Counted from the stretch's first letter, positions 683-39,579 are shown. The stretch: 42,590 nt of DNA from a virus (IMGVR_UViG_3300006033_000595:1-42590), one strand, 5' to 3'. The notes: generated from the letters alone by a model not told the origin. Made by a program: numbers and translations.

Positions 683-1572
683 CAGCCTATTACAACGAAA
701 TTGACCCCTTCGTGGCCGACTGGCTGCGGAATCTCATATCCGCCGGACACATAGCGCCCGGCGACGTGGACACTCGCTCTATAGAGGACGTGAAACCGGA
801 TGACCTCAAGCCCTACACGCAATGCCACTTCTTCGCCGGAATCGGCGTGTGGTCCTATGCGCTCCGCCGTGCCGGATGGGCCGACGACCGGCCAGTCTGG
901 ACCGGCTCCTGCCCCTGTCAACCTTTCAGCGCGGCAGGCAAGGGCGGCGGGGTTGCTGACGAGCGGCACCTATGGCCCGCCCTCCATTGGCTCATCTCTC
1001 AGCGCCAGCCTCCGGTCTTCTTTGGCGAACAGGTTGCGTCAAAGGCTGGACTCGGATGGCTCGATCTTGTATCGGCTGACCTGGAAGGAACGGGCTACGC
1101 CTGCGGGGCAGTCGATATCTGCGCTGCGGGCATCGGTGCCCCGCATATCCGACAAAGGCTGTGGATTGCCGCAGAGCGGCTGGCCGACGCCGACGACTCG
1201 CTACTGGAAGGACGGGAGCGGCTCGAATGTCCCCCTGAACGCATTGCTTGGGAGGGTCGTATGGCTGGCAGGCTGGCCGACGCCACAGACGCAGGACGCG
1301 AGCGGAGGCGGTCAGGCGAAGCGTGCGATGGGGGCGACGCGACACGGGTCGAACCTGAACGACTTCGCGATGCTGGCGGGGCCGGCAAGGATCACAGCGT
1401 CCGGCGAGATGCTGACTGGCTCTTCTGCCGGGATGGACGGTGGCGGCCAGTTGAATCCGGGGCATCCCCGCTGGCTCATGGCGCTCCCTCCCGCGTGGGA
1501 CGCCTGCGTGCCTACGGTAACGCGATCCACGCGGAAACGGCAGAAGCATTCATCAGGGCATTCATGAAATGA
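679..1572 (+). CDS. DNA (cytosine-5) methyltransferase
   Basis: This 297-residue protein transfers a methyl group from S-adenosylmethionine to carbon 5 of cytosine in DNA. Motif I is FAGIGVWSYAL (about residues 52-61). The catalytic PCQPFSAAGKG motif IV has its nucleophilic Cys at about 80. Motif VI reads GEQV instead of the usual ENV. Motif VIII is QRLW (about 159-162), and motif X is YGNAIHAETAEAF near the C-terminus. The ending DGRWRPVE...GRLRAYGNAI is typical of short phage Dcm-like enzymes. The region between motifs VIII and X, where the target recognition domain should be, is rich in Ala, Arg, Asp and Glu, and it coincides with a second open frame. The start overlaps the preceding stop, and the 3' end overlaps the next start (ATGA). 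The likely role is protection of phage DNA from host restriction. Confidence 0.93.
   Translation: MTAYYNEIDPFVADWLRNLISAGHIAPGDVDTRSIEDVKPDDLKPYTQCHFFAGIGVWSYALRRAGWADDRPVWTGSCPCQPFSAAGKGGGVADERHLWPALHWLISQRQPPVFFGEQVASKAGLGWLDLVSADLEGTGYACGAVDICAAGIGAPHIRQRLWIAAERLADADDSLLEGRERLECPPERIAWEGRMAGRLADATDAGRERRRSGEACDGGDATRVEPERLRDAGGAGKDHSVRRDADWLFCRDGRWRPVESGASPLAHGAPSRVGRLRAYGNAIHAETAEAFIRAFMK
800..1567 (+). CDS. Probable overprinted protein in the +1 frame of the methyltransferase gene
   Basis: A 255-codon open frame lies entirely inside the cytosine methyltransferase gene. Its translation carries features I recognise from recurrent phage/prophage hypothetical proteins. These are TSGTYGPPS (about 55-63), LYRLTWKERATPAG (about 90-103), two WPTP boxes (WPTPTTRYWKDG at about 128 and WPTPQTQDASGG at about 159), and a C-terminal block with LTGSSAGM, GGQLNPGHPRWLMALPP and WDACVPT. 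A random shadow frame would not show such ordered family motifs. The true start is uncertain. The ATG used here has only a distant GAGG, and frameshift entry is possible. Function is unknown. The alternative is that this frame is only translated in annotation pipelines, its conservation being a by-product of the methyltransferase. Confidence 0.45.
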   Translation: MTSSPTRNATSSPESACGPMRSAVPDGPTTGQSGPAPAPVNLSARQARAAGLLTSGTYGPPSIGSSLSASLRSSLANRLRQRLDSDGSILYRLTWKERATPAGQSISALRASVPRISDKGCGLPQSGWPTPTTRYWKDGSGSNVPLNALLGRVVWLAGWPTPQTQDASGGGQAKRAMGATRHGSNLNDFAMLAGPARITASGEMLTGSSAGMDGGGQLNPGHPRWLMALPPAWDACVPTVTRSTRKRQKHSSGHS

Positions 1573-1958
1573 AAACGATTCAGCACACAAATCCGGGCGG
1601 GAGAGTCGTCAATGTGGAAGTTGGCGAGCGCGTACATATCGGCGCTGACACATATATCGGGGACGACGTGACGATCCACGATGACGTATATATCGGGGAC
1701 AATTCGATCATCAGCAGCGGAACGTATATCGAAAGTGGCGTGTCGATCAGGAACTGGGTGATAATCGACACCGACTCATATATAGGCCCTGACGCCTATA
1801 TCGAACACGACGCCTATATCGGGTGCCTGGCTTCTATCGGGAGTGGCGCGGCCATAGGGGCCTGGGCGACGATCGAGTCCGACGTGTATATCGGTGACAT
1901 GGTGACGATCGAGAGCAGAGAGTGGATAGAGAGAGGATCGACAATTGACAGACCTTGA
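1569..1958 (+). CDS. Hexapeptide-repeat (left-handed beta-helix) protein B
   Basis: This 129-residue solenoid protein is a paralog of hexapeptide protein A. After an N-terminal cap (MKTIQHTNPGGRVVNVEVGE) there are about 18 consecutive hexads, such as TYIGDD, VTIHDD, VYIGDN, TYIESG and AYIEHD, enough for about six coils. Compared with A, the turn positions are much richer in Asp/Glu and the second position often carries Tyr/Thr, so one face would be acidic and aromatic. No acyltransferase catalytic residues or extra domain are visible. The start codon overlaps the methyltransferase stop (ATGA), and the 3' end overlaps the next gene. The function is unknown; a structural or binding role is more likely than catalysis. 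Confidence 0.85.
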   Translation: MKTIQHTNPGGRVVNVEVGERVHIGADTYIGDDVTIHDDVYIGDNSIISSGTYIESGVSIRNWVIIDTDSYIGPDAYIEHDAYIGCLASIGSGAAIGAWATIESDVYIGDMVTIESREWIERGSTIDRP

Positions 1959-12470: not shown

Positions 12471-13298
12471 TTACAAGCGCCCGTCGTGGTCATCATCGGA
12501 ATGGTCAACGGAGAAGTTTGCATTCAGGAATCCTTCCGCCATTGATCTGAAAACCGGGAACTCGTCTTTTGCCACGAAGCCGGCCGGCTTGATGGCGAAG
12601 TTCTTGAACGCCCCCTTGTCGTTCTTTTCGTCCACGGTCGAAATCGTGAACACTCGCGCAAAGATGGGGATATTTCCGCCGAGCTTGAGCAGGGCGTTGA
12701 AGTCCTTTGCCTTCTTTGCGCCAGAACGGGAAAGGGACAGGGCGGCAACCAGATTCCCATGCGTCGGGAGAGCGACGACGAAATTGTGATGCGCCGTGGC
12801 GGCGATCCCGCTATCCTTGTCGCCGGGGATTTCCGAGCCCCAATCGGCAAGGCCGTCCTCGTCGATATACTTGCCGGTCTTCCACTTCACCTTGACCTTG
12901 CCGCCGACCTTCACGTCGAAAGACGTATTCGGCTTGTCCCATGCGTATCGCGTCCCGTCCTTCGTTGAGACGGGCTTGGCGCGGGCGAGAATGCCACCGC
13001 CGTCTTCACGCGGGTTCCAGAGGATATATTCCTTGCTGCGTGCGAGCAGAACGAACGGCAACTTGTCATTGGGGCCGACAAGAACGTCGCCGGAGACATT
13101 GAGGAACAGGGCTCCCTCGGGGATGTCGCCGGACTTGACTTCTTCGCTCATGGACTGGCCGATCTTGATGCGGGGAATCGTGATATCATCGCTCTCGATA
13201 CCCTCGGTTCCGGTCGGGCCCTTGTAGTCGGAAAGGTATGAGGGGAAGTCCTCAACCTTCGCGACGGCAGTCGATTTCGTAACAGCTTTCTTGACCAT
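12471..13298 (-). CDS. Phage protein of replication block, possible ssDNA-binding protein
   Basis: This 275-residue protein has AGGAG about 8 bases before its ATG. The N-terminus is Lys-rich, followed by DDITIPRIKIGQSMSEEVK. The middle is beta-rich with many basic and aromatic residues (FVLLARSKEYILWNPR, VGGKVKVKWKTGKY). The protein ends in the acidic tail VDHSDDDHDGRL. A beta-rich body and an acidic C-terminus directly upstream of a primase fit a phage single-strand-binding protein, but I do not recognise a named family. The alternative is another replication accessory protein. The preceding intergenic gap holds an 18-bp palindrome. Confidence 0.6.
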   Translation of the reverse strand: MVKKAVTKSTAVAKVEDFPSYLSDYKGPTGTEGIESDDITIPRIKIGQSMSEEVKSGDIPEGALFLNVSGDVLVGPNDKLPFVLLARSKEYILWNPREDGGGILARAKPVSTKDGTRYAWDKPNTSFDVKVGGKVKVKWKTGKYIDEDGLADWGSEIPGDKDSGIAATAHHNFVVALPTHGNLVAALSLSRSGAKKAKDFNALLKLGGNIPIFARVFTISTVDEKNDKGAFKNFAIKPAGFVAKDEFPVFRSMAEGFLNANFSVDHSDDDHDGRL

Positions 13299-13316: not shown

Positions 13317-13334
13317 TGACCCGTATACGGGTCA
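13317..13334. promoter_or_regulatory. 18-bp perfect palindrome between replication genes
   Basis: TGACCCGTATACGGGTCA reads identically on both strands. Its left end is also the stop codon (TGA) of the coiled-coil gene, and it ends about 18 bases before the start of the SSB-like gene. As DNA it could be a dimeric regulator site. As RNA it would form an 8- to 9-bp stem with little or no loop. No U-tract follows on either strand, so a classic terminator is unlikely. Confidence 0.5.
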
Positions 13335-13733
13335 GGCTTTCCTTAGAGCGGCAGTCGGGATGAATGTCGCCTTGAGGAAATCGGGGAGAGGATTGCCCTC
13401 GGTCATCTGTTCCTTGGCGAACGCCGTAAGCGTCTGCGGGAAGACCCAATCCTTCACAATGTCGTCGTGCCCGTTCTCGCGAAGCCAGTCATACAGCTTC
13501 TCGCGATCATCAGCCAGCACAGAGACATAAATCTTGTTCTGCAAAAACACAGTTCCGACTCCATCGACCCTGAAAGATTCGATGTCGGCGTCTTCCATCG
13601 CTCTTGGAAGTTCGTTCTCGGCAATAGTCTTGATCTGCTCGTTGACATCCTTGAGACTGTCTTCAAGTTCGTTCTTTCTGGCCTTGAGGTCACTGAGCGA
13701 CCTGGCAAATTCAGTGAGCTTGTTGTTCGACAT
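13332..13733 (-). CDS. Hypothetical coiled-coil protein of replication block
   Basis: This 133-residue protein starts at MSNNKLTEF, with AGGAGA about 8 bases upstream. Residues about 5-45 (ARSLSDLKARKNELEDSLKD then VNEQIKTIAENELP) form a strong coiled coil. The following part (DIESFRVDGVGTVFLQNKIYVSVL) looks like a small beta-domain, then helices. Proteins of this build occur near SSB and recombination genes in other phages, but no function is assigned. It may be an assembly partner of the SSB-like protein next to it. Confidence 0.6.
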   Translation of the reverse strand: MSNNKLTEFARSLSDLKARKNELEDSLKDVNEQIKTIAENELPRAMEDADIESFRVDGVGTVFLQNKIYVSVLADDREKLYDWLRENGHDDIVKDWVFPQTLTAFAKEQMTEGNPLPDFLKATFIPTAALRKA

Positions 13734-13735
13734 TT

Positions 13736-13882
13736 TTACTCTCCTAGTGTGGCCATCAGCCCAATGTTGGCGATGACATACCCAACGAGGACGAACGCCC
13801 CCGCCACATTCCCTTGATAAAAGCACATACCAGCCTGAACGGCATAAAGCAAGCTGATAATTATCATCGGAGCGACACTCAT
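13736..13882 (-). CDS. Small two-helix membrane protein
   Basis: This 48-residue peptide overlaps the helicase stop at its start (ATGA). It has two hydrophobic segments, APMIIISLLYAVQAGMCF and AGAFVLVGYVIANIGLMA, separated by a short YQGN turn, so it is probably an integral inner-membrane hairpin. It could be an early membrane-acting peptide, such as an exclusion or toxic peptide. Similar tiny membrane proteins of unknown role are frequent in phage replication regions. It is too small to assign. Confidence 0.6.
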   Translation of the reverse strand: MSVAPMIIISLLYAVQAGMCFYQGNVAGAFVLVGYVIANIGLMATLGE

Positions 13883-31152: not shown

Positions 31153-31724
31153 GTTCTTATGGTCCCCTGCAAAAGCCTGGATTTGGTCATCAGCTTTTCT
31201 CTCGCCCACCTTTCGATCAGGGGGACGGCGATTGCAACCGCCTCTGTTTCAGATGTCCAGATTCGCCGCGCAGGGGTTGCCCATTGCCGACGTGGGACGA
31301 ACGCAAACCGGCCAGGGCCGGGCAGAGAAAGCGGTCTCGGATTGACGATGTTGAGAACCACGAAAGGCTTGAGGTATTCGTCTTCTGGACCAACCTGAGG
31401 CTGGTTGAAGCCTTCATGATGCTGTGTCAGGGTCCATTCTCCGGGAGATTCAAAAAACACCTCTGCCCGGCGCGAACCGAAAACACGCGACTTGACCCGG
31501 TTCTGCATCCCGGCGAGCGGCTTGCGAGCGTTTTTCTTTGCCCTTATCCACTTCGATACTGGCCTCCATGTCCCGCCATCATTCGTTACGATTCGCCTGC
31601 GCACGTTCTCCCGCAGGGCGATGCTGACATCACGCAGGGCAGACGGAAGGGCCTGCTCTACGTCTCTTGACAGGCCAGAAAGAAACGCCTCTGTGGCTCG
31701 CGCTCTCGGGACGAGAACTTCCAT
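31149..31724 (-). CDS. Head-tail joining protein (virion morphogenesis / HK97 gp10-like)
   Basis: This 191-residue basic protein overlaps its upstream neighbour at TGATG. The N-terminal part has the helix LSGLSRDVEQALPSALRDV then ALRENVRRRI. The core GGTWRPVSKWIRAKKNAR with RRAEVFFESPGEWTLTQHHEG resembles phage virion morphogenesis (HK97 gp10-like / Mu G-like) proteins that finish the tail-to-head interface. It is in the expected place between DUF1320 and tail terminator genes. No enzyme motif is present. Confidence 0.7.
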   Translation of the reverse strand: MEVLVPRARATEAFLSGLSRDVEQALPSALRDVSIALRENVRRRIVTNDGGTWRPVSKWIRAKKNARKPLAGMQNRVKSRVFGSRRAEVFFESPGEWTLTQHHEGFNQPQVGPEDEYLKPFVVLNIVNPRPLSLPGPGRFAFVPRRQWATPARRIWTSETEAVAIAVPLIERWAREKLMTKSRLLQGTIRT

Positions 31725-32212
31725 CAGAAATCTCCGCTACGGTCGTCGCGCTCGGATTCGATATAATCGCTGTCGGCGCGTTGCTCAAGCTCGCCAAGGA
31801 CCGGGGAGAATACAGGGTGGAAATCCTGTACGCTTGACCACGCCTCCTGATTTCCGCCTTGTGATACCTGCTGGCTGTTTGCCGTCAGGATCATGTCGCC
31901 ATCCCTGAGCATCGCCAGCATGGATTGCGCAGCCGTAAAGCGCCGATCCATGAAATCTGGAATCCTGGGTGCCTTGTCTTCGACCATCTTGTAGAGAGCC
32001 ATATCGCAAGTCAATTGCGTGATAAGCGGCTCCGGCGAAAGAGGGAGAACGTACCGAGCGCCGAGGTACGCGTTAACGTAGCTCTCGGCGTCAGCGACGT
32101 AGATTGACGACACGTCAACAGACGAAACGTCATTGACCCCGCTACCAACCATGGTTGATATGGGGGGATACCTCTTGAAGATGTCGTCTATTGTGGCATA
32201 GGCCATTGTCAT
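31724..32212 (-). CDS. Head-tail adaptor, DUF1320 (Mu gp36-like)
   Basis: This 162-residue protein starts at the ATG in TGATG overlap with the fusion gene. AYATIDDIFKRYPP, then SSIYVADAESYVNAYLGARY and LTCDMALYKMV is the DUF1320 pattern of small helical adaptors that bind the portal ring. The C-terminal region is acidic. It is encoded between the glycosyltransferase fusion and the tail completion protein, so the connector operon is interrupted only by the fusion gene on the capsid side. Confidence 0.8.
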   Translation of the reverse strand: MTMAYATIDDIFKRYPPISTMVGSGVNDVSSVDVSSIYVADAESYVNAYLGARYVLPLSPEPLITQLTCDMALYKMVEDKAPRIPDFMDRRFTAAQSMLAMLRDGDMILTANSQQVSQGGNQEAWSSVQDFHPVFSPVLGELEQRADSDYIESERDDRSGDF

Positions 32213-35109
32213 CACCAGTAGCGAGAGCAGCGGTCTTTGAACTCTGGTTCAAAAAGCTGCCTCAGTATCTTTTCAAGCTGTTCGTAGCTCTCGAAACGCC
32301 CGTTGATTGTCGCGCTCCTGTCTTCAAGGCTGATTGCGACCTGTAGGGGAACGCCAATGTTAAGGATTGCATATGCCTCCGCAACATACTGGATAGACAG
32401 GAATGTTCCGGGTCCAAAAGCACCCATCTCGTCCTGATGCTCATTATAATAGGCAACGGCTTCCTTAGCCAGAGCAACCTTTTCGTTGTTGTCGCGGCTG
32501 AACCTTGCGCGATGCAAAATATCACGCAACCACAGGAACTTATGGAGCTTGCGGTCGTTTCCTTCTGTCTGATGGTCCCATTCGAGGAATGGGAAGTTGC
32601 GGAAGAACCGATCCCTGCGCACGTCCTCGTTGACATATCCACTATGGCCGATGTCAACATCAGGCAAAAGATAGCATCGGCCTGGGCCACCTTCTGCGAC
32701 CTCGAAATGCTCATGGATATGTCCGTGAGCGACGTAGCCACGATTGGCCTTGAACAGGCGGGCAGGGCGATCAATTTCGACCGGGTTGCCGCGAGGGACG
32801 CATGTGAAATGGTGCTGCGGGATCAGATATCCGTCCAGCGAATTATTCCGCAGATACTTGCGGAAGTCTCCGCTCAGATATTCGTCTGTGTCGATCCACA
32901 ATATCCAGTCGAAAGCGTCAAGCCCCTTCACGGAGGCGTTGCGAGCGTCATCGAAACCGAACTTCCATGGTTCGATCTTTGGAACGTCGATGATGCGGTA
33001 ACGCATCCATGGTCGCTCAGAGAACCACCGTTCAACGACGGAGAGCGTGTTGTCGGTCGAAGGGCCATGCGCGATCTGTACGAACTGGACCTGCTTCTCG
33101 ATGCTGTTGAGAGTCTTGAGGATCGTATCCTCGTTATTATAGGCGATCATCGCAGCGGCGCAGGTCTGCCTTGGGATATGACGCATTGCCTTGGCAACGA
33201 TGTCGATAGCTCTGACAGGGGCGTGGTCGGCATCGTAGCCATAGAACAACTGGCCGATACCGCGCATGTCTTGAGACATGCCGACAGAAAGAGCCAGGAA
33301 TGATTCGCGAGGCTTGTCGCCGCACATATCCTTGAACATCTGCCTGTCTATATGCCAGAGATGGTTGCGATCATGCCAATGACCCTTGCGCTCATAGCCG
33401 ATTGGTTCCCATGCGCCGAACGGCACGGTGATGAGCATTCGACCGCCGGGCTTTGAGAACCGCTCGACTTCTTCGAGCAGTTTCCACGGCTCCACGACAT
33501 GCTCAAGAACCTCAGAAAGGATTACGGCGTCATATGTCACGGCGCACGTCCTGGAATCTCCGCAATATGCGCGGAGATTAGACAATGAGTGAGCCGCAGC
33601 GCCATTGTTCAAAACGTCCACGGCGCTCTGTGCGAAATCGACCCCAACGAAGGTTAGAAGCGGGAACCGCTTGGCGAGAGGCGCGAGAAGGTGGCCGGGG
33701 CCGCACCCATATTCAAGAACGCGAGAGCCGGGGGCCAGGGCCTCAAGCTCCTGCGAAATCACGTCGAATCTGAGACTGCTTGCTTCCGTCCTGAAAACAA
33801 GCTCACTTTCGCTTTCACCCTTTGACGTATAGGCGTCGTCATAAAACTTTGCCATGTCGAAATTCTGGTCGAACAGGAACGGATATCCGTCCTTGAGTTC
33901 AGAACGCAGCGAGTCGGCCATTTCAATTTCGAGATCGCCGATGACGAGGTTGAAATCGAGCATGGCCTTTGCGGCAATAACGTCGCCGTCCTGAATGAGA
34001 GACCAGGCGTGAGAGAATGGGGCCACGGGCTCAGGGACGGCGTTGTCCTCGACCATGTCGGCCACGCCGTCCCAATAAAGATCGGTGCGGAGCGACATTT
34101 CGTTCTTCACGCTGGAAATATATTCGGGATTGTTCATGGTCTCGCGGAAAAAATTAGCGAAGGCCGCACAAAACTCGTCTGTGCAAGGATCAATGGCGGG
34201 ATAGAAATCCTCGAAGTAGATTCCGCATTCGCCAAGCGTTTCCGGCAGAGCGCCGACGCGGGTTGTGAAGAACGGGGTCTGCTGCTCGATGCACTCGCGA
34301 GCGAGGATGCATGATGTTTCCTCGAACTGAGTCGGATAGATATAGGCTGCCGCCTCGCTGATGATCTGCCTGAGTTCGACCTGCGACTTGGACCCAAGGA
34401 ACTTCACGTTAGGCATCGTCTTCATGCGTGCGAAGACCATGTTGTAATAGTCGCGCATGTGCTCAGGGAAATGGTCGTAAAATACAACCTCAAGGCTATA
34501 TTCAGGCAGGCGTTCCATGATGCCGCCAGGCCGAATCAGATTGTCAAGGCCACGCTCAGGGCGGGCGGCATACAGAATCTTGCGCTCGGAGCGCGGGAAC
34601 ATCTTGTCCGTCTTGACGGGGACAATCCCATTACGGAGAGCCACGATATTATCGAGCGGATAGCCGGTCGCCTCTGAAATCTGGTTGCGATGCCATTCGG
34701 AAACCGCCCACACTTCATCGAACGTGAAGTCGATCTGCTCAAACGCCTTCTGCATGCCGCGCTTCGTGGCGATATCATGCATCCATAGAACTTTCTTGGC
34801 AGACATCGTTGGCAGGGAAACAAGTTGAGGGTCACGAACGGCGATCAGAAGATCGTGACGCGTCGTCATGGCAAGCTGCTCAAAATATTTGAGATCGACA
34901 TAGCGCACATTGTCGGTATGAACGTCGCCAGATAGCCAATAATCGGACTGGCTGTTGTCCGGGAGATTGCAGCACATGACGACGCTGTGGCCTTTAGCCG
35001 CGAGCGCCTTGCCAAGCATCAGGGCTGCCGTTTCAGACCCGCCAAGAGATTTCAGGTAAGGCGTTTCTGGACCAAACGGCATTGCTCCGCAAGCAATAAA
35101 AATTTCCAT
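32212..35109 (-). CDS. Glycosyltransferase (GT-B) / methyltransferase / glycosyltransferase (GT-A) fusion protein
   Basis: This 965-residue three-domain protein is unusual in a capsid operon. Residues 1 to about 360 are a GT4-like GT-B glycosyltransferase: SLGGSETAALMLGKALAAKG near the start, and FEETSCILARECIEQ then TTRVGALPETLGECG at about 262-296. Residues about 415-630 are a SAM-dependent methyltransferase: VLEYGCGPGHLL (about 464-475), VGVDFAQSA, LSEVLEHVVEPWKLL, FSKPGGRMLI. Residues about 650-870 are a GT2-like GT-A domain: AAMIAYNNEDTILKTLNSI and WILWIDTDEYL with the DTDE metal motif (740-743). A helical tail follows. GGAGG precedes the ATG. It may glycosylate and methylate virion proteins or host-surface sugar; no acceptor can be read from the sequence. 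Confidence 0.9.
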   Translation of the reverse strand: MEIFIACGAMPFGPETPYLKSLGGSETAALMLGKALAAKGHSVVMCCNLPDNSQSDYWLSGDVHTDNVRYVDLKYFEQLAMTTRHDLLIAVRDPQLVSLPTMSAKKVLWMHDIATKRGMQKAFEQIDFTFDEVWAVSEWHRNQISEATGYPLDNIVALRNGIVPVKTDKMFPRSERKILYAARPERGLDNLIRPGGIMERLPEYSLEVVFYDHFPEHMRDYYNMVFARMKTMPNVKFLGSKSQVELRQIISEAAAYIYPTQFEETSCILARECIEQQTPFFTTRVGALPETLGECGIYFEDFYPAIDPCTDEFCAAFANFFRETMNNPEYISSVKNEMSLRTDLYWDGVADMVEDNAVPEPVAPFSHAWSLIQDGDVIAAKAMLDFNLVIGDLEIEMADSLRSELKDGYPFLFDQNFDMAKFYDDAYTSKGESESELVFRTEASSLRFDVISQELEALAPGSRVLEYGCGPGHLLAPLAKRFPLLTFVGVDFAQSAVDVLNNGAAAHSLSNLRAYCGDSRTCAVTYDAVILSEVLEHVVEPWKLLEEVERFSKPGGRMLITVPFGAWEPIGYERKGHWHDRNHLWHIDRQMFKDMCGDKPRESFLALSVGMSQDMRGIGQLFYGYDADHAPVRAIDIVAKAMRHIPRQTCAAAMIAYNNEDTILKTLNSIEKQVQFVQIAHGPSTDNTLSVVERWFSERPWMRYRIIDVPKIEPWKFGFDDARNASVKGLDAFDWILWIDTDEYLSGDFRKYLRNNSLDGYLIPQHHFTCVPRGNPVEIDRPARLFKANRGYVAHGHIHEHFEVAEGGPGRCYLLPDVDIGHSGYVNEDVRRDRFFRNFPFLEWDHQTEGNDRKLHKFLWLRDILHRARFSRDNNEKVALAKEAVAYYNEHQDEMGAFGPGTFLSIQYVAEAYAILNIGVPLQVAISLEDRSATINGRFESYEQLEKILRQLFEPEFKDRCSRYW

Positions 35110-35151
35110 GATCCCTCCAAGGATTCAAAGTTGCGTATCGCACTATCTCAC

Positions 35152-35187
35152 AAAAAAAGAGGCCCTGCAAGTAAAATGCAGGGCCTC
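35152..35187 (-). terminator. Strong rho-independent terminator after the major capsid gene
   Basis: On the minus strand GAGGCCCTGCA (35187-35177) pairs perfectly with TGCAGGGCCTC (35169-35159) around a seven-base loop and is followed by seven U residues (35158-35152). It lies 38-73 bases beyond the capsid gene stop and before the glycosyltransferase fusion start. It should reduce transcription from the head genes into the downstream genes. Confidence 0.95.
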
Positions 35188-35224: not shown

Positions 35225-36169
35225 TTAGATAACGCTCGCGATGCGGGTCGCGAGGTCGGACGAGATGACCTTTTCGTCCTGATAGTAGGAAGCCTCGATG
35301 CGCTGCGACATGGTTTCGCTGTCGAAGGGGAAGCGACGGATGGCGAACGGCACGCCGAAGCGAGGGTCAGTCCACCGGAAAGCCTGGAGCCACGTATCGA
35401 CCTTGCGACCGGGCAGGGGGCTCACATAGGCCAGATGGACATAGTTGCCCCAAACAGGGGCAATCGTGCCGGCGGCACCGAGCGCAGCCGTGTTGACCAT
35501 GATCTCGGGGACGAGAATCTTGTCAACCTTGAGCAGGGAGGCAATCTGCGAATCCATGGCGATGCCGCCACGATCACCGAACAGACGGTCAATGATCTGA
35601 TCGTTACGGCGCAGAAGGGTAGCGATCTGCTCCGGGACGATCAGGAGATTGGGTCGAAGGCTTGTCCGCATACGGAACGCCTCGATCTGGTTTGAAAGAT
35701 CGTCGAACGGGCGTGAGCCGGTCGTGTTGGACCATGCCGTCGCGACATTGGTCGTCGTGGCGACGTTGGCGGCAGTGTTTGCCAAGGCGGCGACGCGGGC
35801 CTCGTAGGAGATCAAAAGCCGATCGGTGACATACTCGGCGGATTCCTGATTGAGGGCGATCGAGTCGTCGGCGTTCACCTCGTCCTCTGTCGTCCAGTGG
35901 GTCGAGAGGGCATAATTCTTGGCGAAATAGGTGTCGCTGGAAACCGTCCAGAAGACCTCTTTCGACTTCGTGCCGGGAGCACGCGCATCCAGATTCGGGA
36001 CATACTGGAGACTTTCCTTGAAGTCCCGCTTGTAATACACGTTGCTCTGCTTGCTGACATTAAGAACCGGCAAAAGCTGGTCCGCGATGTAGCCAGCGGG
36101 GCGGCGACCGATCACGATATTGGAAAGCACCGTGTCGATATGAAGATCGCGTCCAGTAGCGAGAGGCAT
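35225..36169 (-). CDS. Major capsid protein
   Basis: This 314-residue protein has AAGGAG upstream of its ATG. The sequence has the plan of Mu/HK97-fold capsids: an N-terminal arm (MPLATGRDLHIDTVLSNIVI), a spine-like helix (YVTDRLLISYEARVAALANT), FRMRTSLRPNLLIVPEQIATLL, and a strand-rich C-terminal domain (VWGNYVHLAYVSPLPG, FGVPFAIRRFPFDS). It follows the decoration gene and is followed by a strong terminator, as is common for highly expressed capsid genes. The HK97 fold is inferred from order and pattern. Confidence 0.85.
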   Translation of the reverse strand: MPLATGRDLHIDTVLSNIVIGRRPAGYIADQLLPVLNVSKQSNVYYKRDFKESLQYVPNLDARAPGTKSKEVFWTVSSDTYFAKNYALSTHWTTEDEVNADDSIALNQESAEYVTDRLLISYEARVAALANTAANVATTTNVATAWSNTTGSRPFDDLSNQIEAFRMRTSLRPNLLIVPEQIATLLRRNDQIIDRLFGDRGGIAMDSQIASLLKVDKILVPEIMVNTAALGAAGTIAPVWGNYVHLAYVSPLPGRKVDTWLQAFRWTDPRFGVPFAIRRFPFDSETMSQRIEASYYQDEKVISSDLATRIASVI

Positions 36170-36184
36170 TTTGAAAACTCCTTA

Positions 36185-36568
36185 TTACACGAATGCGGCG
36201 AGGAAGGTGCGGTCGATCTTGACCGAAGCCAACATGCCGGAGGCGGCAGATGTCATGAAGATGCCAAACGCCTTGGAAACGGTGCCAGTGGTGACGGAAA
36301 CCTGCACGGCCCAACCGGAAGCGGCAGACGTTGCGAGAGAACCTGCATTGACGGCGGCACCGACGCGGACAAGAGAAATACCGCCAGCGGCGACCGTGGC
36401 ATGTTCACCAAGTCGAGGCTTGTTTTGAAGCACTCCATATCCACCGCCAGCACCGGCAACGTCGATGACGGAATTTCCGCCAGAGAGATCGACGACGCGA
36501 TGCATCAGGGCTGACAGGTCTGCGCCGGCCACGAAGCTCTCGTTTTTGACATCGTACTCATACGCCAT
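36185..36568 (-). CDS. Capsid decoration/cement protein (DUF2190-like)
   Basis: This 127-residue small Gly/Ala/Val-rich beta protein has GAGGAAAACTAATC before its ATG. The pattern LVRVGAAVNAGSLATSAASG with GWAVQV resembles DUF2190-type head decoration proteins that stabilise capsids. It lies between protease/scaffold and major capsid genes, the usual place. It probably binds the outer capsid surface. Confidence 0.75.
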   Translation of the reverse strand: MAYEYDVKNESFVAGADLSALMHRVVDLSGGNSVIDVAGAGGGYGVLQNKPRLGEHATVAAGGISLVRVGAAVNAGSLATSAASGWAVQVSVTTGTVSKAFGIFMTSAASGMLASVKIDRTFLAAFV

Positions 36569-36570
36569 GA

Positions 36571-37110
36571 TTAGTTTTCCTCTGCATAGCGGGTCTTGAG
36601 ATCGGCGTCTTCCGAGAAGACCGCCGAAACTGCCTGTGAATAGCTGAGAGACTTGTCAGCCGCCATCCTTGCTTTCGCCTTGGTGTCCACTTCCTCTGAG
36701 GCAGAGCTTTCGGTTTCTGCCTTTGAGCGGCCCATCTCTCCAAGAATGACGATCTGTGGGAGAGAGCCGACATAGCTCTTGAACAATTCGAGAGCGGTAA
36801 CTTCCTTGTCGCCAAACTTCACCTTGGACGAAGCCTTGTCGCGGAACACGGATGCAATGGCGATCATCTCGCCCTTGTTGCCCGGAAGAATACGACCATC
36901 GTAGATCGCCGCGTCGATAACGCTTTCAATTTCGCGATCGAGAGACTCGTCCATGAACTTGTTCAGGGCCGCCTCGGCACGATCGGCACGCTCTGCCTCT
37001 GCCGTGGCACGGGATTCAGATGCGTCGATAAGGGCCTGCATTTCGGACTTGGCTGTCGTAACGGCGATTGCCAAAATCGCGTCGTGCTGTTCCTGAGTGA
37101 AAGTCGGCAT
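36571..37110 (-). CDS. Internal in-frame scaffolding protein
   Basis: Inside the protease gene, the ATG of MPTFTQEQHDAILAI is preceded by AGAGG six bases upstream, as good as the main ribosome-binding sites here. Translation from it would give a 179-residue protein containing only the coiled-coil scaffold region. This parallels nested scaffold genes in lambda (C/Nu3) and Mu (I/Z). The split falls exactly at the protease-scaffold boundary, which favours real use. Confidence 0.7.
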   Translation of the reverse strand: MPTFTQEQHDAILAIAVTTAKSEMQALIDASESRATAEAERADRAEAALNKFMDESLDREIESVIDAAIYDGRILPGNKGEMIAIASVFRDKASSKVKFGDKEVTALELFKSYVGSLPQIVILGEMGRSKAETESSASEEVDTKAKARMAADKSLSYSQAVSAVFSEDADLKTRYAEEN

Positions 37111-37581
37111 ATCAACCTCTTTTTGATTCAATTCGATCTTCTCGCAAGCCATTTCGGCGAACTGAGAAGCTGAGAGCGGCTTAAGACCCTTGACCGCAGG
37201 CCATTCCGCTCCTAGAAGGGCAACCGCCCCGAGAACATTCCTGAATACGTCACCGGCATACTCAACCGTAGGATAAACCTCGACTGAAACCGTATTGTAA
37301 TGACGTTTCTTGATCGCGTCAATCATGGCATCCGGGACATCAACGAAGTCGGCCACGATCTTGTCGCCATCGCGACGCAGGTTGTCTACCCATCCATAGG
37401 CCGGTTCGCCAACGCGGTCATTGTGGCCAATCTTAAGAGGGGCCTCGAATCCGGGAACCATGGCGTTCAGCATGTTGAACGAATAAATCATGTCGTCGAG
37501 AAAGCGCGAATCGACAGTTACCTTGCGGCTGCCTTTCCACGTTCCGACTGAAAAAATCTCTACTTCCCTGATGTCAGGCAT
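36571..37581 (-). CDS. Prohead protease with fused scaffold domain (Mu I-like)
   Basis: This 336-residue protein starts at MPDIREVEIF, with GAGGAG about 6 bases upstream. The N-terminal ~150 residues carry the pattern FEAPLKIGHNDR (likely catalytic His) and HYNTVSVEVYP (likely catalytic Ser) seen in Mu-like and related phage prohead proteases. The C-terminal ~180 residues are a charged helical scaffold (RAEAALNKFMDESLDREIES and the acidic SSASEEVDTKAK). It would cleave capsid precursors and itself after assembly. An internal start makes the scaffold alone. Confidence 0.8.
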   Translation of the reverse strand: MPDIREVEIFSVGTWKGSRKVTVDSRFLDDMIYSFNMLNAMVPGFEAPLKIGHNDRVGEPAYGWVDNLRRDGDKIVADFVDVPDAMIDAIKKRHYNTVSVEVYPTVEYAGDVFRNVLGAVALLGAEWPAVKGLKPLSASQFAEMACEKIELNQKEVDMPTFTQEQHDAILAIAVTTAKSEMQALIDASESRATAEAERADRAEAALNKFMDESLDREIESVIDAAIYDGRILPGNKGEMIAIASVFRDKASSKVKFGDKEVTALELFKSYVGSLPQIVILGEMGRSKAETESSASEEVDTKAKARMAADKSLSYSQAVSAVFSEDADLKTRYAEEN

Positions 37582-37624
37582 GGTGACTCCTCGCAACAAT
37601 TATACATGGGCGTTTGCAATGCGG

Positions 37625-38962
37625 TCAACTGTCGCCTCCCTTTTTCGCCCTGTCGTTGCCCTGGTTCGCAGGAGGCGGTGGGGAGTTGGAATCGGCCGGC
37701 GGCGGGAGAGGCTGAGGCCGGACGACCTCATCCTCTTTCTCGCCTTCAAGGCGGAGCGGGAGGCCGAGGATGGATCGGGCGTAATTCACGTCCTTCTGAT
37801 CCATGTCGATAATACCGGCGGCGTGCAGGAGGCGAATCGTATCCGCGACCTTCATCCCCTCGAACTGCCCATAGTCCTGCCATATGAAGCGCGGAGATGC
37901 GGAGCCTTTCGGGAAGTTCATGCTTACCATCTGCTCGATGACCTGCTTGCAGAACGTAGCCGTAAGGCTCTGCGAGATTTCGTCAGCCATCTTGAACAGG
38001 AGGCGAAGATGCAGCGCCGACTGGCTGTCGCTTCCCTGGCCTTCGGTCTCTCCGAGCAGGGCGACCATCAGGATCGCGCGGGCGATGGAATCGTTGTGAT
38101 ATTTGAGCGCAGCGTCGTATGACGCGTTGCCGGCACGCTTTGCCTCGATAAGTTCTATCTCGACGCCCTGAGGGACAAGGACTTCCGTCTTTGACGAAAG
38201 GTTCTTGAGAATCTTCTTCAAGGTTTCCTTAAGTTCGTCAGTCGCGCCGACAGGGTAGGTCATCTTCGTCATGGGCGATCCCATGCGCTCAAGGAAGACG
38301 TTCCAGAAGTTGATGATGAATTTCTTCGCCCACCACGATCTGTAGGCCGCACGCAGGTCTGAATTGCCGTACGGATTGCCAAACCTGCCGTCATGCGCAT
38401 AGTGCCACAGCTTGCTTGCTTCAATCTCGATGACGGCACCTGTCACCTGTTGCCTGACGCCGATGAAATTTCCGTGGTTGTCGATCTTGAGTTCGATGTC
38501 TTCCGGGTCGCGATGCGCGATCTTGTCGAGAAGGATATACGTTTCGCCGTCGATTTCCTTGCGAGCCCATACAAGTTCGCCGACCGAATATCCGAACTCA
38601 AGAGCCGACAAGGATTCCTTGACAACTCGATTGAAGTCGATGTCGCGCAGATTTTTCTCGATGACCTTCGCGATCTTCTTCGCCTGCTCGGAATCGTCCG
38701 AGGGCGCAAGCTCCCACGCCCTGCCGTGAATCAGGATTTTCTTGAACGACAGACACGTCTTGATCTGATCGTCATGGATCATCTGCTTGTAGGTGCGCCA
38801 TCCATAGCGCTTTATGATTTCGTCCACAGGGAGGAAATAAACGCCGCCCTGACCAACGCCTGTTGCAGCGGAGATCAGGTCGCGCCCGATGACCATCTTT
38901 TCCCCCTCTATGGCGCGGGGCCTGCCACGCACGGCGGCGAAAAGGTCGGATACGTATCCCAT
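37625..38962 (-). CDS. Portal protein, DUF935 (Mu gp29-like)
   Basis: This 445-residue protein has the DUF935 pattern. It shows IIKRYGWRTYKQMIHDDQIK and VVKESLSALEFGYSVGELVW. Further on are GDLRAAYRSWW-type text (NSDLRAAYRSWWAKKF), AKRAGNASYDAALKYHND and LLGETEGQGSDSQSAL. Such portals form the dodecameric channel for DNA packaging and ejection. The C-terminus is Pro-rich and hydrophilic (PLPPPADSNSPPPPANQG), which is ordinary for portal tails. It follows the adenine methyltransferase and precedes the protease. Confidence 0.9.
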   Translation of the reverse strand: MGYVSDLFAAVRGRPRAIEGEKMVIGRDLISAATGVGQGGVYFLPVDEIIKRYGWRTYKQMIHDDQIKTCLSFKKILIHGRAWELAPSDDSEQAKKIAKVIEKNLRDIDFNRVVKESLSALEFGYSVGELVWARKEIDGETYILLDKIAHRDPEDIELKIDNHGNFIGVRQQVTGAVIEIEASKLWHYAHDGRFGNPYGNSDLRAAYRSWWAKKFIINFWNVFLERMGSPMTKMTYPVGATDELKETLKKILKNLSSKTEVLVPQGVEIELIEAKRAGNASYDAALKYHNDSIARAILMVALLGETEGQGSDSQSALHLRLLFKMADEISQSLTATFCKQVIEQMVSMNFPKGSASPRFIWQDYGQFEGMKVADTIRLLHAAGIIDMDQKDVNYARSILGLPLRLEGEKEDEVVRPQPLPPPADSNSPPPPANQGNDRAKKGGDS

Positions 38963-38997: not shown

Positions 38998-39048
38998 TTG
39001 TAGCCTGAACGCGCCAGAAAGTCACTTCGTGGCGCACCAAGGCTACAA
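38998..39048. repeat. Nested inverted repeat (RNA hairpin) between adenine methyltransferase and portal genes
   Basis: TTGTAGCCT (38998-39006) pairs with AGGCTACAA (39040-39048). Separated by symmetric four-base internal gaps, GCGCC (39011-39015) pairs with GGCGC (39031-39035). Inside, a short GAA/TTC can extend it. The right arm covers the methyltransferase stop codon. No U-tract follows on the minus strand, so it may be an RNA-processing or stability element, or a regulator site. Confidence 0.75.
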
Positions 39049-39579
39049 GTTCAGGTCCGGCGGAAGTTTCCGCTCCGCTACACAGATCGTATCGTTATGG
39101 GCGCCACCATGCGCACAAAGAAGAACCTCAAGCATCTCATATCGTCGTTTGACTCCCATGCCAGACGAGTTCCATCCGAACGAAAGCACTATGCCGCCAG
39201 GACTTATCACCAAGTCAAGAGCATCGCGGACTCGACGGTATAGTGCGCCGCTTTGCGTCTCTTTCATTCCGACAGCGCGTCCAACGCCCTTGTACACTTC
39301 GCTGATTTGGCGTGGGCTATATGGCGGATCGAATATCCCAAGATCAGCCACAACGCCATCATCACGCATCTTTTTGCAAAAATCCTCCGCATCCATATGG
39401 AACTGCGCTGCGGTGTCTGGAGCCAGATCATTTGTGAATGTGGCCCACGTCTTGTTACGGGCGAACGGATCAATGCTCACCTGTGAGGTACTCAAGTACC
39501 GCTGCACAAAATCGCCTATAGGGCCGACTGAAAACGTATCGGCAGAAGGCATCGCCCATACACGCGAAAAGACTGTCAT
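39043..39579 (-). CDS. Adenine-specific DNA methyltransferase (phage small type)
   Basis: This 178-residue protein has FDPPYSPRQISEVY (DPPY motif IV, residues 84-87). VDPFARN-like text occurs as SIDPFARNKTWATFTNDL, and IVLSFGWNSSGMGVKRRYE and CAHGGAHNDTICVAE complete the pattern of a small phage N6-adenine methyltransferase family. It transfers methyl from SAM to adenine in DNA. AGGAGA precedes the ATG. It lies between the terminase and portal genes, a packaging location, so it could modify phage DNA before packaging to evade restriction. Confidence 0.85.
   Translation of the reverse strand: MTVFSRVWAMPSADTFSVGPIGDFVQRYLSTSQVSIDPFARNKTWATFTNDLAPDTAAQFHMDAEDFCKKMRDDGVVADLGIFDPPYSPRQISEVYKGVGRAVGMKETQSGALYRRVRDALDLVISPGGIVLSFGWNSSGMGVKRRYEMLEVLLCAHGGAHNDTICVAERKLPPDLNL

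Follow-up and report, generated by a model that had tools for sequence, protein, structure and literature searches.

The 42,590-base virus record IMGVR_UViG_3300006033_000595 from IMG/VR (the window below, which may be incomplete) carries within its head module one gene that joins a GT4-type glycosyltransferase (GT), a methyltransferase (MT) dependent on S-adenosylmethionine (SAM) and a GT2-type glycosyltransferase in a single polypeptide of 965 residues. All three domains have intact catalytic motifs, the gene is under purifying selection, and its link to the gene of the major capsid protein (MCP) is nearly fixed among relatives. The product is probably a soluble trifunctional enzyme which glycosylates a protein of the virion head and methylates the glycan; we infer from the data below the virion-protein acceptor, the order of the steps and the placing of the methyl group on the sugar.

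A sequence-only reading of the window had described a three-domain gene of this length at 32212–35109 and assigned it to GT4-like, SAM methyltransferase and GT2-like segments. The open reading frame (ORF) is indeed intact from an ATG start, lies on the minus strand, which had not been given, and the assignment was borne out by Pfam, by a structure model and by a fold search. Each of the five motifs named was found at the residue cited (GGSETA 23–28, FEETSCILARE 262–272, VLEYGCGPG 464–472, LEHVVEPW 535–542 and DTDE 740–743). By Pfam the methyltransferase was a strong match (Methyltransf_23, residues 449–591, E 4e-17) and the GT4 and GT2 ends were weak ones (E 1e-5 to 1e-2); PHROGs placed glycosyltransferase families at both ends. 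The three assignments are firm because of the model and the fold search. No transmembrane segment was found in the protein.

The AlphaFold2 model of all 965 residues, built with 27 homologues, had a mean predicted local distance difference test score (pLDDT) of 89.7 and a predicted template modelling score (pTM) of 0.88, so that the mutual placement of the domains is also predicted with confidence. In the search of the PDB with this model the N-terminal part resembled the GT-B enzymes PimA, tll1591, HepE and GlgM, in agreement with its fold, the conserved E264-x7-E272 and the conserved basic donor-binding RPERG. The middle part, with a SAM motif of the ExGxGxG type in a Rossmann-like fold, resembled the SAM methyltransferases Rv2258c, CouO and EvdMO1, the last of which was crystallized with S-adenosylhomocysteine and D-fucose. 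The best match overall was that of the C-terminal half to ThuS/SunS, and this half shows the features of such enzymes, namely a GT-A fold, a DxD motif (as DxDE, invariant across members) and a helical C-terminal region. Residues 640–965 modelled alone (pLDDT 90.8) again matched ThuS/SunS best (E 4e-17, template modelling score 0.63), followed by TarS and RmlT at 4e-9.

A sequence search of the PDB with the GT2 part gave ThuS, GmaR and SunS. In addition, a GT2 gene of an Enterococcus plasmid was 30% identical to it over 206 columns and is adjoined by an ABC transporter gene, an arrangement that we take to be a glycocin-like operon. ThuS and SunS glycosylate peptides, and GmaR glycosylates flagellin. 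This kinship inclines us towards a protein acceptor, short of proof.

Homologues were collected from three independent seeds (the MCP, the GT4 domain and the GT2 domain), and all converged on one arrangement. The sets comprised the best 80 loci by similarity and the family is thus larger than sampled; 516 relatives of the GT4 domain were counted overall, the fusion not being assured in all of them. The first full-length homologues were 57–59% identical to the window protein and further ones 47–52%. Among complete ORFs of the GT4- and MCP-seeded loci 73 of 74 were the fusion, and with the GT2 seed the figure was 71 of 76, the remaining five being cut by contig ends. The merged non-redundant set held at least 108 distinct complete ORFs (median 969 amino acids), every one of them (108/108) with the order GT4-MT-GT2. 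A splitting of homologues at the domain boundaries, which would have pointed to an assembly error, was not borne out by either count. Chance, misassembly and a frameshift between the domains are excluded, since about 100 distinct loci carry this fusion, as a single ORF, in one and the same position. The rarity that the sequence-only reading had implied was wrong: the search for the same domain order in other phages revealed a widespread family, though only in uncultivated ones. A description of this fusion was not found in the literature searched, whose coverage was partial, and a scan of bacterial genome contigs gave one weak match, to the GT2 part only.

The position of the gene is conserved as well. 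A homologous MCP gene on the same strand precedes the fusion in 94 of the 96 loci with more than 1.5 kb of upstream DNA (median gap 343 nt), and gp36 follows within 100 nt in 45 of the 99 loci with downstream DNA. Viewed from the capsid gene, in the 46 MCP-seeded loci a member of the family was the adjacent downstream gene, or was separated from the capsid gene by a few small ORFs, wherever the MCP was at least 32% identical and enough downstream DNA was present; in one of them (L048) the GT4 part only was found. In MCP-seeded loci with remote MCPs (26–29% identity) and readable downstream DNA the enzyme was not found, and the MCP relatives lacking it, such as that of Roseobacter phage CRP-6, are remote in general (23–29%).

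In each of the three domains the motifs for donor binding and catalysis (DxDE, E-x7-E and SAM motif) are retained down to about 27% identity. Among pairs more than 70% identical the ratio of nonsynonymous to synonymous substitution rates (dN/dS) was 0.05–0.16 overall, and no domain for which it could be computed reached 0.23. Pairwise identities of the fusion and of the MCP were correlated (Mantel rho 0.815, 0 of 2000 permutations), as expected for genes inherited together. Two homologues (L143:6001–9831 and L139:386–4444) contain inteins, that of L143, with an HNH domain, within the E-x7-E motif of GT4 at a conserved Cys and that of L139, of LAGLIDADG type, just ahead of the GT2 HEHxE motif. 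Inteins usually occupy conserved sites of important proteins, and their location in or beside catalytic motifs is thus a mild sign of importance. The G + C content of the window gene (54%, against 55–60% in its neighbours) gives no support to a recently acquired foreign gene of odd composition.

On these grounds the following mode of action may be proposed. The enzyme would be made together with the head proteins and act in the cytoplasm. Its donors would be nucleotide-sugars of the host, since no sugar-nucleotide genes were recognised among the annotated ORFs of the window. The SunS/ThuS-like GT-A domain, with the helical C-terminal region, would attach the first sugar to an acceptor side chain, a second one would come from the GT-B domain, and the methyltransferase would cap the short glycan using SAM. 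The genomic link makes the MCP the first candidate for the acceptor, with the small head protein encoded upstream as the second. Of the two roles that the sequence-only reading had offered, decoration of the virion with a methylated glycan is thus supported by MCP synteny, co-divergence, folds of peptide glycosyltransferases and literature precedent, and alteration of the host surface has found little support.

Several observations weigh against modification of a head protein. A SunS-like fold is no proof of a protein acceptor, and TarS and RmlT, the next matches, glycosylate wall teichoic acid. The MCP link is not absolute: in one locus (L147), where no MCP was detected in the vicinity, the fusion adjoins SbcC/SbcD-like and radical-SAM genes, and L221 is a second locus in which no upstream MCP was detected (2 of 96 in all). 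A tblastn search of 50,697 phage records found the full-length fusion in no isolate. Finally, the MCPs adjacent to the fusion share a Ser/Thr and several Asn positions that are not conserved in remote MCPs, but these differences are confounded by ancestry and could not be used to point out an acceptor residue.

The same domains would also suit a late modification of a host surface polysaccharide (lipopolysaccharide, capsule or teichoic acid), which could block superinfection or keep released virions from sticking to debris. Many polysaccharide loci of bacteria encode GT4, MT and GT2 domains, and the GT4 matches PimA and HepE, together with the second-rank GT2 matches TarS and RmlT, agree with such a role. 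It is nevertheless considered unlikely: the protein has no transmembrane segment, the neighbours examined include no Gtr-type flippase or membrane partner and no polyprenol-type one was found, and the gene is tied to the MCP, with which it co-diverges in near-obligatory coupling, and not to a lysogeny region. The relationship of the GT2 part to GmaR and to glycocin glycosyltransferases could also fit a non-virion target, either a protein such as host flagellin or pilin or a small molecule, modified in the course of host takeover; persistence beside the MCP over such divergence, and co-divergence with it, would not be expected in that case, which makes this explanation rather improbable.

Phages do employ glycosyltransferases on DNA, and in the L147 locus the fusion has genes of DNA metabolism beside it, so that glycosylation and methylation of phage DNA (hypermodified bases) as a counter-defence, like that by T4-type DNA glucosyltransferases, was also considered. 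Among the annotated ORFs of this possibly incomplete record there were no genes for hydroxymethyl-pyrimidine or similar base modification or precursors; the fusion sits in a late head operon and its GT2 part matches peptide glycosyltransferases. This role is very unlikely. Conservation beside the MCP would be compatible, too, with a mainly structural or assembly factor that has lost catalytic activity in at least one domain, but the retention of the DxDE, E-x7-E and SAM motifs to about 27% identity and the inteins in or beside catalytic motifs leave hardly any probability for it. Glycosylation and methylation of a head protein is thus the explanation preferred here.

The features of the gene and of its surroundings are collected in Table 1. 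The genes of the head module lie on one strand in the order terminase, portal, protease, small head protein, MCP, fusion, Mu gp36/DUF1320 and tail genes, in agreement with the location between capsid and DUF1320 connector genes given by the sequence-only reading. The homologue of the small head protein in Arthrobacter phage Ottawa is annotated as "head fiber". Hairpins comparable to that in the MCP-fusion gap occur in most relatives, a suitable T-run not being found in several of them. If this hairpin acted as a leaky terminator, much capsid protein and little enzyme would be made.

Table 1. Fusion gene, its domains and the neighbouring features of the head module in the window (feature, position, strand, remarks).
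GT4-MT-GT2 fusion, proposed trifunctional virion glycosyltransferase/methyltransferase, 965 aa	32212..35109	-	ORF, Pfam, model, homologue set
GT-B (GT4-type) glycosyltransferase domain, residues 1-356; RPERG 183-187, E264-x7-E272	34042..35109	-	
Helical linker, residues 357-439	33793..34041	-	Model secondary structure, inter-domain boundaries
Class I SAM methyltransferase domain, residues 440-625; EYGCGPGH 466-473, EVLEH 533-537	33235..33792	-	
GT-A (GT2-type, SunS/ThuS-like) domain, residues 646-850; D740-T-D-E, HEHFE 799-803	32560..33174	-	
C-terminal helical region and small alpha/beta module, residues 851-965	32215..32559	-	Model, fold search
Shine-Dalgarno-like GGAGGG of the fusion gene	35113..35118	-	
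Terminator-like hairpin, 11-bp stem and T7, in the MCP-fusion gap	35152..35187	-	Folding z -5.06
MCP (phrog_1005, E 5e-50), candidate acceptor, upstream of the fusion	35225..36169	-	
Small head protein (phrog_673 "head scaffolding"), alternative candidate acceptor	36185..36568	-	
Head maturation protease (phrog_976, Mu I-like)	36571..37599	-	
Mu-like portal protein	37625..38962	-	
Phage_Mu_Gp36/DUF1320 head-tail connector (E 1.5e-15), downstream of the fusion	31724..32215	-	4-nt overlap with the fusion

Further ORFs were observed around the fusion in some relatives. In several members (L106:5261–6010, L141:4406–5131 and L147:4752–5474) it is preceded, immediately or at a short distance, by a radical-SAM ORF, which may be a recurrent partner. 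Between MCP and fusion an additional stand-alone GT4 gene was found in two loci (L085:4934–5935 and L098:5038–5988) and HNH/NUMOD4 homing-endonuclease ORFs in two others (L053:2116–2667 and L062:7061–7684). The small ORFs of this interval were considered as glycan acceptors and rejected, those of L053 and L062 having homing-endonuclease domains and that of L097 matching a Rha regulator, not decoration proteins. Elsewhere in the window a small hexapeptide-repeat transferase-like ORF (1569–1958, plus strand) stands beside a DNA methyltransferase (448–1572) at the window edge, a DNA methyltransferase-like ORF (phrog_11619; 39043–39579, minus strand) lies between the portal and large terminase genes, and homologues of cyanophage Pam3 gp34 and gp33 (12471–13298 and 13332–13826, minus strand) occur in the replication region.

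Other gene sets for glycans, assembled independently, were found at this site behind capsid genes. In L048 (3918–10522), whose MCP is 39% identical to that of the window, a stand-alone GT4 gene (32% identity) precedes a DegT/DnrJ/EryC1-type ORF, a GT2 gene and a gene for a B12-binding radical-SAM protein, apparently an alternative glycan cassette. In a phage of another type (L004, 2867–6987) a putative capsid gene precedes three separate genes, for a GT-A-like protein, an FkbM-like methyltransferase and a GT4 enzyme; here "capsid" and "FkbM-like" are labels read from the sequence. Behind the MCP gene of ctKR88 (MW202524) come a GT2-TPR-GT4 fusion and additional genes for GTs and MTs. That different phages have placed glycan-building sets behind the capsid gene favours a capsid-related role. 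In Arthrobacter phage Ottawa the position of the fusion, between a related MCP gene and head-tail genes, is occupied by gp102 (L013:8339–10642; 767 amino acids, no Pfam match). The uncultured Caudovirales proteins with several GT and MT domains per chain (BFVD A0A6J5M7M7 and A0A6J5T3W3; L003, L005, ctKR88), some of them beside head genes, differ from the fusion in domain order or set (GT2-TPR-GT4; GT4-GT2-FkbM) and, in the cases read, in having unrelated head genes.

Glycosylation of phage virions has so far been documented in few isolates, mainly mycobacteriophages, and by separate accessory genes. In the present family a single fused enzyme keeps its place next to the capsid gene almost without exception throughout a deep clade of phages from the environment, which suggests that glycans on capsids may be widespread in nature and connected with the biology of the head. 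It is possible, and put forward tentatively, that in a large lineage of uncultivated tailed phages a nearly obligatory, capsid-linked single polypeptide starts, extends and methylates the glycan of the phage's own head, as a core trait of morphogenesis and not an accessory one. With three activities in one soluble protein encoded beside its likely substrate, the identity of acceptor and sugar is open to an expression test with two genes.

Among solved structures SunS and ThuS, with GmaR, are closest to the GT2 and C-terminal part, but these are stand-alone bacterial enzymes for a bacteriocin peptide or flagellin, unfused to GT-B or MT domains. Serotype conversion of the Gtr type differs in employing a membrane GT, a flippase and a bactoprenol transferase, whereas the fusion has head genes as neighbours and no membrane-spanning part. 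The nearest phage precedent is mycobacteriophage Corndog, in which an O-methyltransferase gene (gp35) and three glycosyltransferase genes (gp36–gp38) lie between portal and protease genes and were suggested by the authors to modify the capsid (PMC4351075); two later papers, citing Freeman 2023, report a modification of capsid and tail tube by the products of these genes (PMC11600133, PMC12363180). As in Corndog and Che8, glycosyltransferases and a methyltransferase are encoded here within the head operon, with the methyltransferase in the same chain. The differences are that in those phages the genes are separate and lie between portal and protease, while here one polypeptide is encoded between MCP and gp36, and that the phages which carry the fusion are uncultivated and have a head module of another kind; no mycobacteriophage was among the tblastn matches to the fusion at E 1e-5. 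The other precedent, A064R of the chlorovirus PBCV-1, unites two rhamnosyltransferases with a methyltransferase in a single protein, which finishes the glycan of the capsid by building its methylated end (PMC9614988). It has two GTs and one MT per polypeptide, as does the fusion, but is 638 residues long, with the order GT-GT-MT, and belongs to a virus of eukaryotic algae whose N-glycan needs several further enzymes; neither A064R nor its domain D1 (1LL2) was among the fold matches listed. The GT4-MT-GT2 enzyme would thus be a parallel to the separately built one of the algal chloroviruses, and most likely works like the Corndog genes and A064R but is neither: order and size differ and, as far as the searches went, so does the sequence.

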